DNA of 64,000 bases, taken from assembly GCA_902567855.1 (NCBI GenBank), contig CACFOQ010000004.1, forward strand, positions 61,404-125,403, in the 5' to 3' direction. The translations under genes were made by a program, and so were the position numbers. The notes beneath the pieces were generated by a model. It worked only from the letters and a program-made list of their open reading frames with translations, was not told where the DNA came from and made no database searches. Source of the stretch: an uncultured Alphaproteobacteria bacterium (GTDB taxonomy: Bacteria; Pseudomonadota; Alphaproteobacteria; HIMB59; GCA-002718135). The stretch's first letter is position 1; each line of letters begins with the position of its first letter. Positions 2,980 through 35,497 of the stretch are shown here, one piece after another.

Positions 2980-3712
2980 GTATTTGGCTTAAAAATAATT
3001 TTGTTCTATCACTCTCTGGATTATTAAAAAATTTATCTGGAGGAGCTTCTTCTACAATTCTCCCTTCATCCATAAATACCATTCTATTAGCAACAGTTTT
3101 TGCAAAACCCATTTCATGAGTTACAACAATCATTGTCATTCCACCTTCTGCTAAATCAACCATGACATCTAAAACTTCTTTAATCATTTCAGGATCAAGA
3201 GCAGAGGTTGGTTCATCAAAGAGCATAATATTAGGATTCATGGCTAAAGATCTAGCAATTGCTACTCTTTGCTGTTGACCACCTGAAAGTTGTCCAGGAA
3301 ATTTATTAGCTTGTTCAGGAATTTTTACAATTTCTAATTGTTTCATTGCAAGTTCTTCAGCTTCAGATTTTGGCATTTTTTTGACCCATATAGGTGCTAG
3401 AGTAATATTTTCTTTAACAGACAAATGAGGAAATAAATTAAATTGTTGAAAAACCATTCCAACTTCTTTTCTAACGCTATCAATATTTTTTAAATTTCCT
3501 GTTAACTCAATACCATCAACTACTATTTTTCCTTCTTGATGTTCTTCAAGTCTATTAATGCATCTAATCATAGTTGATTTACCTGATCCAGAAGGGCCAC
3601 AAACTACAATACGTTCCTTTTTTTTAACTTCTAAATTAACGTCTTGTAATACGTGAAAATCACCGAACCATTTGTTAACATTTTGTAATGATATAATTGA
3701 ACTTTCTGACAT
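2969..3712 (-). CDS. aapP: General L-amino acid ABC transporter ATP-binding protein
   Basis: Walker [25 protein letters not shown], polar amino-acid ABC ATPase signature; operon context. Confidence 0.92.
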
Positions 3713-3714
3713 AA

Positions 3715-4854
3715 TTAATCTGCTCCCATGTTAATACCTGTTTTAAGCTTTTTTTCCAAATATAAACTGTATCTTGACATAGAAAAAGTAAATATAATGA
3801 ATACTACTGCTACAAATACATATACCTCTATTGATAAACCCATCCAAGTTTGTGCTGCTAAAACAGCTCTGCCAATACCTAAAAGATCTAACTGCCCTAC
3901 TATTAATACTAAAGTTGTATCTTTAAATAATCCAATTGAAGTATTAACTATAGAAGGAATTGTAATTCTTATTGCTTGAGGTAAAATAATTTTTCTATTC
4001 ATTTGCCAATATGACAAACCTACTGATTGAGCTGCCTCATACTGACCTTGAGGTATTGCTTGAAGTCCTCCACGAATAACTTCAGCCATATATGCACCTT
4101 GGAATAAGGTAACAGCTATCAAACACCTTACTAATCCATCTAAAGTTATGCCCTCAGGCAAAAAAAGAGGTAGCATTACCATTCCAAAGAAAAGTAAAGT
4201 AATTAGAGGAACTCCTCTGATAAATTCTATAAATAAGGTACATACCATACTTATAACAGGTAAATTAGATCTACGACCAAGTGCTAAAACTATACCTAAT
4301 GGAAAAGCAAGAGCTATACCAGTAAAGCCTAAAACAAGAGTGACAAGTAAACCTCCCCAATCTTTAGTAGAAACGTGAGCTAAACCAAAACCACCAGCAA
4401 GAAGGAAATATGCAATTATAGGAAAGATAAGTGTAAAATATAAGAAATATTTTCTTAGTGGAAATTTTTCAATCAATAAAGGTGCAACTGCGATGACTAA
4501 TAAGGAGTAAACAATATTAACTCTCCACACTTCCTCAACAGGATAAAAACCATAAATAAATTGATAGAATCTAACAAAAATTATTGCCCAACACGCTCCT
4601 CCTATTTCAGGATCCATTACTCTAGTACAAAAAGTTCTGTCAATTATTTGTTGTCCTAAATAATTATGAGTGAAATCAGCAGCAAAAATAGACCAATTTA
4701 AAAAAGGAACTAGGATTTGATATAAAAGATAAATTACAAGAATAGTTAAGATGGAATTAAACCAGCTAGAAAACAAATTTAATCTTATCCATCCAAGCAA
4801 GCCTGTAGTTGCAATTGGTGGAGTTCTTGATTGTTGAAAGTTTTCTGATGACAT
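3715..4854 (-). CDS. aapM: General L-amino acid ABC transporter permease AapM
   Basis: HisM/GlnP-type permease with EAAxxxG loop ([13 protein letters not shown]); operon. Confidence 0.9.
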
Positions 4855-32566: not shown

Positions 32567-32611
32567 TGGTCGGGGAGAAAGGATTCGAACCTTCGACCCC
32601 CTGGTCCCAAA
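32567..32611 (-). repeat. Distal att-like direct repeat: orphan 3' fragment of tRNA-Pro (anticodon loop to CCA)
   Basis: TGGTCGGGGAGAAAGGATTCGAACCTTCGACCCCCTGGTCCCAAA, identical to 34275-34319; no tRNA 5' half follows. Confidence 0.95.
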
Positions 32612-32640
32612 TTATATTAACACTAATTTTGAAATTATAA

Positions 32641-32673
32641 AAGACCTCAGAAACACTAGGGTTCTGGGATCTT
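32641..32673. other. Imperfect inverted repeat inside the islet near its distal end
   Basis: AAGACCTCAGAA / TTCTGGGATCTT arms (10 of 12 complementary) around a 9-nt spacer. Confidence 0.5.
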
Positions 32674-32746
32674 AAGAAATATCTGTGATTTTCACTTTAT
32701 TGTATTTTATTAAATTTTATCAAACTAAGTAAAGGATTTACTGTAT

Positions 32747-32772
32747 CACTAAGTGTAACACTCATTTATAAT
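32747..32772 (+). promoter_or_regulatory. Operator-like overlapping palindromes and -10 box of the islet operon
   Basis: CACT-A-AGTG overlapping AGTGT-A-ACACT (32747-32762) followed by TATAAT (32767-32772), 8 nt before the ATG at 32781. Confidence 0.55.
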
Positions 32773-32780
32773 GTTGATTT

Positions 32781-33476
32781 ATGAAAAAACAAAATACATC
32801 TCATGCAGTCATGGCTAAAAGATTTGAAGAAAATGATAGCTTAGATGATTTTCCTACCCCACCTTGGGCGACAAGAGCATTATTTGAGTCTACATTAAAA
32901 AAATACAAATCAAAATTAAAAAAAATGAAATGTTTAGAGCCTGCATGTAACAGAGGCTATATGTCAAGAGCTCTTAAAGAATATTTTAAAAAAGTAGATT
33001 CTCGAGATGTATGGGATTATGGTTTTGGAAAGGTTCAGAATTTCTTAGAAACTAAATACGAAAAAAATTCATTTGATTGGGTTATTACAAATCCTCCTTT
33101 TAATCTTGCTGAGGAATTTTTAATCAAATCTTTGAATATATGTTCTCATGGCACAGCAATCTTAGCAAGAACAGTATTTTTAGAAAGTGTTGGAAGATAT
33201 AAAAATATATTTTCTAAAAATCCACCAACATACTTTGCTCAATTTACTGAACGTGTTCCTATGATAAAAGGTAGAGTTGATAAACAAGCCTCAACTGCAA
33301 CGGGATATGCTTGGTTTATTTGGATAAAAAATTCCAAAATAAATTCAAAACTTACCTGGATAGAACCATGTAGAAAATTATTGGAAAAAGAATTTGATTA
33401 TGAAGATTTTGATAAAACAATAAATCCTAAAAGGAAAAAGAAAAATATTTTAAGATCTCAATATAAATTATTTTAA
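32781..33476 (+). CDS. SAM-dependent DNA (adenine-type) methyltransferase, phage/islet-borne
   Basis: FPTPPWATRAL N-terminus; motif I-like CLEPACNRGYMSRAL; motif IV DWVITNPPFNLAEEF. Confidence 0.75.
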   Translation: MKKQNTSHAVMAKRFEENDSLDDFPTPPWATRALFESTLKKYKSKLKKMKCLEPACNRGYMSRALKEYFKKVDSRDVWDYGFGKVQNFLETKYEKNSFDWVITNPPFNLAEEFLIKSLNICSHGTAILARTVFLESVGRYKNIFSKNPPTYFAQFTERVPMIKGRVDKQASTATGYAWFIWIKNSKINSKLTWIEPCRKLLEKEFDYEDFDKTINPKRKKKNILRSQYKLF

Positions 33477-34148
33477 ATGACTCAAAAACTTCAAAAACAA
33501 CTTAAACCATTGATTTATTCAACAATAGAAAAATTGAAAAGTAAAGAATTTAAAAAAGATCCTATTGGTGGAGAACATTTTTCAAAAATAACAAGTTTGA
33601 TGAGTAGCGCTTATAAACGGCATGGATTAATACTCGAATATTCCTTTTTAAATCTCCTTAAAAATAATCAGAATTATGATACTTGGGAAGATAAAGAGTT
33701 TAAAGTTTCTAGACCGGCAGATGATCTTGCTAGTTCCTTTATTGAAAATCCATTAGAAGTTTACAATACTGAAACTAGCTACAGTACACATAGAGCTGTA
33801 AGAACTTTGCAAATTGATTTAATTACATATAATAAAAGAACGAAAGAATTGTCTGCTTATGAAATTAAAAGAAGTAATGGGAGTCATGATGCTGGTAAAA
33901 AAAGACAAATTCTAAGAGATATACTTTGTGTCCAAGTTTTATTAAAATCATATGGTGAGAGTAAAAATTTTGAGGTAAAAAGTGCACGAAGCTATATAAT
34001 TAATTATTATGGTATAAGAGACATTGTTAAACCATTTTCAATTATAAATACTGAATTAGATGAACACTTTGGTTTTTCAGTATATAGACAAATTGAAGAG
34101 ATTAATGAAATATATAGAAAAAAATTATTTGAGATTTTAAGCAGATAA
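33477..34148 (+). CDS. Putative PD-(D/E)XK nuclease / restriction endonuclease-like protein
   Basis: QIDLITYNKRTKELSAYEIKRSNGSHDAGKKRQ: D-xn-ExK core; ATG directly abuts the methyltransferase stop codon (TAAATG). Confidence 0.6.
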   Translation: MTQKLQKQLKPLIYSTIEKLKSKEFKKDPIGGEHFSKITSLMSSAYKRHGLILEYSFLNLLKNNQNYDTWEDKEFKVSRPADDLASSFIENPLEVYNTETSYSTHRAVRTLQIDLITYNKRTKELSAYEIKRSNGSHDAGKKRQILRDILCVQVLLKSYGESKNFEVKSARSYIINYYGIRDIVKPFSIINTELDEHFGFSVYRQIEEINEIYRKKLFEILSR

Positions 34149-34188
34149 GTTGTATTTTATTAATTTTTATAAAATTAAGTATATGACC

Positions 34189-34210
34189 AACTGGTCTAAG
34201 ACCAGTTTTT
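34189..34210 (+). terminator. Rho-independent terminator of the islet operon
   Basis: AACTGGTC-TAA-GACCAGTT followed by a T run. Confidence 0.8.
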
Positions 34211-34274
34211 AGTGTTTGAAAATATTTAAAAAAATAACAAAAAGCATAACAACCGGTATAGTATGCTCAATTTT

Positions 34275-34351
34275 TGGTCGGGGAGAAAGGATTCGAACCT
34301 TCGACCCCCTGGTCCCAAACCAGGTGCGCTACCAGGCTGCGCTACTCCCCG
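34275..34351 (-). tRNA. tRNA-Pro(TGG), intact copy, containing the proximal 45-bp repeat
   Basis: Reverse strand CGGGGAGTAGCGCAGCCTGGTAGCGCACCTGGTTTGGGACCAGGGGGTCGAAGGTTCGAATCCTTTCTCCCCGACCA. Confidence 0.95.
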
Positions 34352-34431
34352 AAATAAAAAGCTTATAATGATTATCGTATGAAAAACAATTATTTAGTTG
34401 GAAATTTAAATGTTTTGAGTTAAATTGAATG

Positions 34432-34498
34432 TCTTTGGGGTGCTTAAATGCTGAGATTTATACCCTCGTAACCTGATCTGGATAATGCCAGCGGAGGA
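34432..34498 (+). ncRNA. TPP riboswitch (THI element)
   Basis: GGGGTGC...GCTGAGA...TACCC...CCTGATCTGGATAATGCCAGCGGAGG immediately upstream of thiB. Confidence 0.93.
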
Positions 34499-34501
34499 AA
34501 T

Positions 34502-35497
34502 ATGAAAAAAATTTATATATTATTATCTTTAACTTTATTGCTTTCATCTAATGTCTATGCAAATGATAAAGATACTTTAACTGTTTATACATATGATTCA
34601 TTTGTTTCTGAATGGGGGCCTGGACCCATAATTAAAGAAATATTTGAAGAAAAATTTGATGCTAATTTAGAGTTAATTGCTGTTGATAGTGCAGCCACAC
34701 TTTTATCAAAAATTATTTTAGAAGGTAAAACTTCAAAAGCTGATGTTGTGTTAGGTCTAGATATGAATTTATTAGATGCTGCTAATAAATCAGATTTATT
34801 TCAAAAACATTCATTAAAGAATTTAGATCAGTTAATTCAATTACCTATTAGATGGGAAAGTGATAATTTTATTCCATATAATTATGGATATTTTGCTTTT
34901 GTATATAATAATAAAAAATTTATTAATCCTCCAAAATCTATGAATGAATTGATAAATGAAACTAAAGTAAGATTAGTAATTCAAGATCCTCGTACATCAT
35001 CACCTGGATTAGGCTTACTAACTTGGATGAAAGCAATTTACGGAGATAGTGCTGGGGATGAGTGGAGGAAATTAAACAAAAAAATTATATCTGTAACAAA
35101 AGGATGGACTGATTCTTATTACAATATCTTTTTAGCTGGAGAAGCTGACATGGTTTTAAGTTATACTACTTCACCTGCTGCACATATCATGTTTGAAGAA
35201 AATTATGATTATTCAGCTATAACTTTTGAAGAAGGTAATTATATTTCAATTGAATTTGCAGGAATTTTAAAAAATTCTAAAAATCATACTTTAGCTAATA
35301 AATTTTTAGAATTTATTTTAACTGATGATTTTCAATCTATTATACCTTCTACAAATATTATGTATCCTGTAACTAATAAAACTAATTTGCCAGAAGCATA
35401 TAATTTATTAAATATACCTAAAGCCATTCAAATGGATCCGAGTTCTATAAACGACAATAAGAATATATGGATTGAAGAATGGTTAAATGCTTCATAA
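34502..35497 (+). CDS. thiB: Thiamine ABC transporter substrate-binding protein
   Basis: Signal peptide, LTVYTYDSFVSEWGPGP, QDPRTSSPGLGLLTWM; TPP riboswitch upstream. Confidence 0.9.
   Translation: MKKIYILLSLTLLLSSNVYANDKDTLTVYTYDSFVSEWGPGPIIKEIFEEKFDANLELIAVDSAATLLSKIILEGKTSKADVVLGLDMNLLDAANKSDLFQKHSLKNLDQLIQLPIRWESDNFIPYNYGYFAFVYNNKKFINPPKSMNELINETKVRLVIQDPRTSSPGLGLLTWMKAIYGDSAGDEWRKLNKKIISVTKGWTDSYYNIFLAGEADMVLSYTTSPAAHIMFEENYDYSAITFEEGNYISIEFAGILKNSKNHTLANKFLEFILTDDFQSIIPSTNIMYPVTNKTNLPEAYNLLNIPKAIQMDPSSINDNKNIWIEEWLNAS

Follow-up and report, generated by a model that had tools for sequence, protein, structure and literature searches.

A 1.7-kb integrase-less islet at tRNA-Pro with phage-type attachment arms, probably one of a family of cassettes borrowing phage integrases

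How does a small unit that bears the marks of site-specific integration at a tRNA gene, and that encodes no recombinase, come to be inserted there? The question is raised by the 64-kb window analysed here (the whole stretch of DNA, not the islet within it), which belongs to a genome of 1.35 Mb in 36 contigs at 82% completeness (GC 27%). The genome appears to come from the AEGEAN-169/HIMB59 lineage, probably from its family GCA002718135. This lineage has two families, HIMB59 and GCA002718135, and is streamlined with a mean GC of 29–31% (PMC10734472); the order likewise comprised two families in our data set. The boundaries and genes of the islet were mapped as follows (window coordinates).

32567..32611, no strand: orphan 45-bp att core, the host-side end of the islet; 45/45 against the tRNA copy and the exact attP core of 28 viral contigs
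32781..33476, + strand: DNA adenine methyltransferase, 231 aa; phrog_799, E 2.4e-49; motif I EPACNRG, then motif IV NPPF
33477..34148, + strand: PD-(D/E)XK nuclease, probable restriction endonuclease, 223 aa; D114, E129 and K131; supported by AlphaFold2 and Foldseek
34275..34319, no strand: 45-bp att core within the intact tRNA, bounding the islet on its tRNA side; from tRNA position 33 through the CCA
34275..34351, - strand: tRNA-Pro(TGG), the attachment gene, kept intact; ARAGORN, and Rfam RF00005 at 67.3 bits

The two direct repeats reported in an earlier note made from the letters of the DNA were identical at 45/45 positions and spaced 1,708 bp apart, and ARAGORN coordinates bore out that the repeat spans tRNA-Pro from position 33, where the anticodon loop begins, through the encoded CCA (the anticodon of this gene being given at position 35). 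These repeat sites were the only matches to tRNA-Pro(TGG) in the window genome, and the tRNA is identical over 77/77 positions in most family members. As that note had also stated, 11 bp separate the repeat from the AGE epimerase ATG, and the 1,708-bp unit contains only the methyltransferase and nuclease genes. These are two complete ORFs on the same strand, and five integrase queries found no integrase in the islet or anywhere in the 64-kb window. The predicted circle junction of the islet reads GTATAGTATGCTCAATTTT, the core and TTATATTAACACTAATTTTG. An assembly artefact was ruled out, as the islet lies interior to a 125-kb contig, both flanks are common to congeners and the same architecture occurs in three other genomes. 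Beyond the tRNA, a TPP riboswitch (Rfam RF00059) was located at window positions 34426–34518 ahead of the adjoining solute-binding protein gene, which suggests that this gene belongs to a thiamine-related ABC transporter.

Comparison with relatives showed that the site is also found without the unit. A pattern search of 111 family genomes for the tRNA-Pro site located it in 84, and a clean empty site was present in most genomes where the site was readable, including two congeners of the window genome (G001 and G002). In both congeners the empty site is exact, the left flank running directly into the intact tRNA; the final 60 bp of this flank are identical to those of the window, its 600 bp match at 98%, and the right flank is 97% identical, so that the 1,708-bp unit was gained or lost exactly between the repeats. 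Neither the methyltransferase nor the nuclease gene was found among 60 relatives (0/60), where their presence throughout as stable core genes would have counted against the reading, and the orphan 45-bp fragment, whose occurrence in islet-free relatives had been set beforehand as a refuting test, was absent from them. Nor was a larger element seen around the islet, as phage-type attP arms begin directly inside both repeats. All three refuting conditions of the earlier note thus turned out in favour of its interpretation. In the sister family, which includes the closed genome G036 (1,410,127 bp), the 3' end of tRNA-Pro differs and no second copy occurs in the 42 genomes with a match; second core copies thus number 0/42 there in comparison to 4/84 in the window family, a contrast that by itself proves nothing. 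Two further candidates were rejected: a 20-nt tRNA-like fragment 15 kb from the site in G019 is separated from it by ordinary metabolic and transport genes and does not delimit an island, and the second core copy in G006 is a contig-end overlap of the same locus with an identical left flank.

Among the 111 family genomes, three besides that of the window carry two core copies bounding an insert, which accords with the expectation of the earlier note that alternative cargo would occur at this site. Their arms are typed A or B after the phages described below.

L116, 1,677 bp: A arms on both sides; T5orf172-domain protein (E 3e-17) and a 236-aa protein
L117, 1,218 bp: arm pair A/A; cargo of two small proteins
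L118, 6,161 bp: arm pair B/B, 91–93% identical to phage L051; cargo of three ORFs

The three ORFs of L118 read, from their sequences, as a complete type I restriction system with modification, specificity and restriction subunits. Within its interior (3536–4324), the putative specificity-subunit gene contains two 240-bp stretches that are 68% identical, in keeping with the two halves of which such subunits usually consist. None of the four islets gave an integrase match, and none of their ORFs is a replication, AlpA-type regulatory or packaging gene. When the islets were compared with one another the arms aligned and the cargo never did. Right arms of the window islet, L116 and L117 are 93–94% identical, in comparison to 79% for the coding gene adjoining the tRNA between the same genomes, which belong to different genera; that noncoding arms are more alike than a neighbouring coding gene speaks for the islet backbone having moved horizontally. 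No other full-length arm turned up in 163 genomes of the order.

A source for such ends was found in viral sequences. The earlier note had predicted temperate phages using the same 45-bp site, and a scan of viral contigs with 34 bp of the core did recover 28 contigs that carry it, in which the exact match extends for 45–49 bp and then departs from the tRNA, so that these contigs hold attP and not a tRNA gene. The contigs tested contained terminase, endolysin, integrase, excisionase and repressor-like genes, a set that fits temperate tailed phages. Most core-bearing contigs fall into two types, A and B, with an integrase beside the core. The type A integrase, of 376 aa (PF00589, E 4.6e-12), has its end 17 bp to the left of the core and is preceded by an HTH_17 excisionase-like gene. 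The type B integrase, of 411–416 aa, has its start about 216 bp to the right of the core; its PF00589 match reaches E 9e-8 in L075 and falls below the curated cut-off in L072. Both are tyrosine integrases, and BLASTP detected no similarity between them. Two contigs, L056 and L076, have other arms, and in L056 a third integrase-like ORF adjoins the core. The exact 45-mer core was found in 2/387 alphaproteobacteria sampled across the class, both in the window family, and this restriction ties the phages to that host group.

Type A phages L050, L052, L053, L054, L055 and L059 share one core and differ in their short arm repeat, which within each phage is identical on the two arms (for example agtatacca in L050, agtctatca in L059 and gtgggaca in L055). 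It seems that arm specificity diversifies around a constant core. Contig L049 begins exactly at the core (position 1), as expected where several left flanks (attP, attL and attR) coexist in one sample. L033 and L034 were considered as helper phages and rejected; the islet-type methyltransferase is present in them (64%), and the nuclease and the att core are absent. Neither the A nor the B integrase was found resident in the 111 family genomes apart from one weak 25% hit, these genomes being fragmentary. Binning tends to lose prophages. With that caveat, the lack of a resident integrase fits supply in trans.

Alignment of the islet ends to these phages resolved the noncoding sequence inside the repeats.

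32612..32769, no strand: right attP arm, integrase type A; 93–94% to L116 and L117 along some 150 bp, and 70–72% to phages L059 and L050
32742..32761, no strand: arm-type repeat pair TGTATCAC-TAAG-TGTAACAC innermost in the right arm; lines up with the pair found in type A phages and islets
34150..34181, no strand: 32-bp piece of type A right arm between the nuclease gene and the left arm; 91% to 32700–32731
34173..34274, no strand: left attP arm, integrase type B; 82/102 identical to phage L075, scoring 99 where shuffles reached 42 at most
34189..34207, + strand: terminator hairpin within the left arm; position common to L075
34234..34252, no strand: arm-type repeat pair ATAACAA / CATAACAA in the left arm; same pair in L075, and the motif in other type B phages and islet L118

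The right arm scored 90 against type A phage L059 (shuffled maximum 39), and its phage homology ends at the repeat pair. Homology between phages and islets is confined throughout to the noncoding arm and short repeats and stops before the integrase genes. Since the integrase lies on the left arm side in type A and on the right arm side in type B, the islet holds exactly the two arms that are free of an integrase. An exact scan of the viral contigs did not recover the islet-specific right arm, and the exact source phage is therefore unsampled. Of the promoter and terminator proposed in the earlier note, the terminator stood as the hairpin listed above, whereas the promoter found no support above chance, a sigma-70 scan giving 14 sites in comparison to 10.2 ± 3.6 in shuffled sequence.

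If A and B elements were integrated in tandem at the tRNA, the outer ends of the array would be A-right and B-left, and the middle would read A-left, core, B-right. The ends of the window islet are A-right and B-left. The middle configuration is found in viral contig L061, whose left 131 bp are identical to the A phage L059 and whose right side is 95% identical to the B phage L072 over 800 bp; this contig may be a tandem double lysogen or an assembly chimera. These ends, the L061 junction and the stray 32-bp arm piece together fit an origin of the window islet as a hybrid left by a tandem A–B array that lost its middle. The window islet may thus be a recombinant and less mobile than L116–L118, because its arms belong to two integrase types and one integrase might not act on both ends.

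The methyltransferase of the islet was assigned through its phrog_799 match, in agreement with the NPPF-motif enzyme recognised in the earlier note, and matched Pfam Eco57I weakly (E 0.0018, below the cut-off). Motif I precedes motif IV, which we take to be the gamma-type order. Relatives of this protein occur in many phages. The nuclease fell into no family of Pfam, NCBIfam, PHROGs or PADLOC, and searching solved structures by sequence returned nothing usable for either protein. An AlphaFold2 model from a two-sequence alignment was set aside (pLDDT 43); the model built on a nine-sequence alignment reached a pLDDT of 91.6 and showed the helix–strand order of PD-(D/E)XK enzymes. Its best solved match in Foldseek was the MunI restriction endonuclease (probability 0.98, E 3.4e-3, TM 0.36), with Bse634I, EcoO109I and McrBC lower in the list and TM-scores that are low throughout (0.36–0.46). 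All 11 aligned relatives keep D114, K131 and R132, and most keep E129. Model and fold match together support the probable PD-(D/E)XK nuclease proposed before. Nuclease relatives were identified in a MAG locus, in 11 other of the 387 alphaproteobacteria, in two plasmids and in eight viral contigs.

The same methyltransferase adjoins the nuclease in L078, L094, L095, L097, L098 and L122 with differing orientations, and in L096, L105 and apparently L123 an MT-A70 methyltransferase stands beside the nuclease instead, as in a swap of partners. L097 and L098 look like defence islands. The cargo is best understood as a small restriction-modification pair of type II-like character, with activity predicted from sequence and model, as the pair recurs across loci, its methyltransferase partner is exchanged for MT-A70, its neighbours are those of defence islands and its fold matches are restriction enzymes. 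Alternatively, the methyltransferase could be an orphan of the phage type and the nuclease could serve another function such as the processing of phage or plasmid DNA, given that methyltransferase relatives stand alone in phages and that the nuclease also occurs in loci without a phrog_799-type methyltransferase. We hold this to be improbable, since the two genes are adjacent in six other independent loci in differing orientations, MT-A70 can replace the methyltransferase, and both the defence-island neighbours and the top fold matches point to restriction.

Two further settings of the nuclease were observed. At 2934–9250 of L078, an alphaproteobacterial MAG sequence that looks like a satellite-like locus, integrase, methyltransferase, nuclease, AlpA-like and Prim-Pol primase genes follow one another in this order. 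In L097, L098 and L125–L129, nuclease relatives adjoin a 790–797-aa HATPase protein and an Mrr-helicase protein, a neighbourhood that may represent a larger defence system.

Taken together, we consider it likely that the islet is a non-autonomous cassette that is inserted, and probably excised, by phage integrases acting in trans and is carried with phages. Such a cassette would consist of the 45-bp core, a phage-type attP arm at either end and the cargo, without a recombinase of its own. An infecting or resident phage would supply a tyrosine integrase, for which the core and the arm repeats of the islet ends would serve as recognition sites, and integration, and probably excision, would be carried out in trans by the integrases of temperate phages that use the same tRNA-Pro. 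The anatomy of the ends strongly suggests integrase recognition. Between cells, the islet would probably spread by tandem accretion, linking to a phage genome through the common core and travelling with the phage, which would favour a small islet size; an alternative route of transfer would be the excised circle. As three relatives hold similar elements with other cargo, the window islet probably belongs to a whole family of cassettes relying on borrowed phage integrases.

Other histories could leave a similar structure. A prophage, a satellite or a tandem pair may have lost its integrase and nearly everything else, the immobile residue being kept since a restriction-modification pair is useful or addictive; the mismatched A and B arms and the stray 32-bp arm piece do resemble deletion scars, and the CIMEs of ICEs have been described as decayed elements (PMC5704250). 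This is nevertheless unlikely in our judgement, as decay would have to account for four islets in one family that keep complete arms and no other phage part, for the matched arm pairs of L116, L117 and L118, for arms that are more conserved across genera than the adjacent coding DNA, and for L116 and L117 differing in cargo between nearly identical arms. That only the arms align between islets, with cargo changing between shared ends, could also be interpreted as homologous exchange, in which an ancestral islet was fixed long ago and its cargo has since been swapped through arms and core by transformation or generalized transduction, with no integrase involved today. The clean empty site in most readable genomes implies instead that whole units come and go, and A/A and B/B islets have so little arm sequence in common that one ancestral islet cannot explain all four, making such exchange quite unlikely.

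We give very little credence to the islet being a true phage satellite that is replicated after excision and packaged into helper virions. The same gene pair does lie beside integrase, AlpA-like and Prim-Pol genes in the satellite-like L078, and PICMIs are packaged without packaging genes of their own (PMC10803314), but the four islets contain no replication, regulatory or packaging gene and the islet-specific right arm is absent from the viral contigs.

The non-autonomous cassette favoured here can be compared with several known systems. CIMEs of ICEs/IMEs (PMC5704250) and the Dehalococcoides ssrA islands that have no integration module (PMC3146451) are att-flanked at an RNA gene and encode neither integrase nor transfer genes, and tandem accretion with an autonomous element has been proposed for them (PMC5704250, PMC3146451). 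Like a CIME, the window islet keeps attL and attR, with identical 45-bp cores and attP arms on both sides, and has no integration or transfer genes, its two ORFs of note giving no integrase match; it differs in that its arms match temperate phages and not conjugative elements, CIMEs being derived from ICEs/IMEs. The ssrA islands derive from serine-recombinase islands, whereas the islets described here are solitary, measure 1.2–6.2 kb and consist only of arms and cargo. No tandem of an islet with a phage was found, L061 showing an A, core, B junction only.

Additive tRNA cassettes have been described in Ca. Actinomarinales, Alteromonas and Methylophilaceae, and the islet resembles them in its position at a tRNA whose 3' end is repeated at the far terminus and in being present or absent between strains; the accessible portions of these reports identify no recombinase source or attP arm (PMC7771536, PMC4119200, PMC10872708), whereas here the arms have a phage source. 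Phage satellites (P4-like, PICI and PICMI) and tycheposons are likewise small, use specific sites such as tRNA genes and carry defence cargo. Satellites, however, encode their own integrase (the PICMI core being int, alpA and prim) and tycheposons carry a tyrosine recombinase, and as the islet encodes none of these it falls outside both definitions. The accessible part of a review of hitcher elements names CALINs and MITEs as trans-dependent and gives no phage-attP equivalent (PMC11389934). These too are non-autonomous and recognised in trans by the enzyme of another element, but through integron attC sites or transposon ends in place of phage attP arms.

The cargo resembles type II restriction-modification systems in that an adenine methyltransferase adjoins a predicted PD-(D/E)XK nuclease with MunI as best fold match, the methyltransferase motifs are present and the pair is kept together across lineages; the nuclease, whose fold and active site are assigned by prediction only, differs from known members in lying outside the families of all four libraries searched and in having no detectable sequence relative among solved structures. 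A literature search, with most subscription journals outside its reach, found no report of integrase-less phage-att islets. In its workings the islet is like a CIME and in appearance like an additive tRNA cassette, and the phage-derived arms with swappable cargo are what is new.

In summary, tRNA cassettes without a recombinase in streamlined ocean bacteria can now be given a nameable candidate for the missing enzyme, namely two phage integrase types that have the same core and recognisably the same arms, which makes cassette mobility directly testable. At 1.2–1.7 kb of attP and cargo, the smaller islets represent a very small possible mobile unit. The analysis also brought out a restriction-endonuclease-like family that is absent from the family libraries searched and has two kinds of adenine methyltransferase as partners, and it links the spread of restriction systems to temperate phages. 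A wider and more tentative proposal, plausible though short of probable, is that temperate phages of this marine lineage support minimal attP-only cassettes with swappable and often defence-type cargo, inserted at tRNA-Pro by the phage integrase and ferried from host to host by joining at the core, and that the arm repeats set which phage moves which cassette. If this is true, a phage could spread restriction systems against its competitors.
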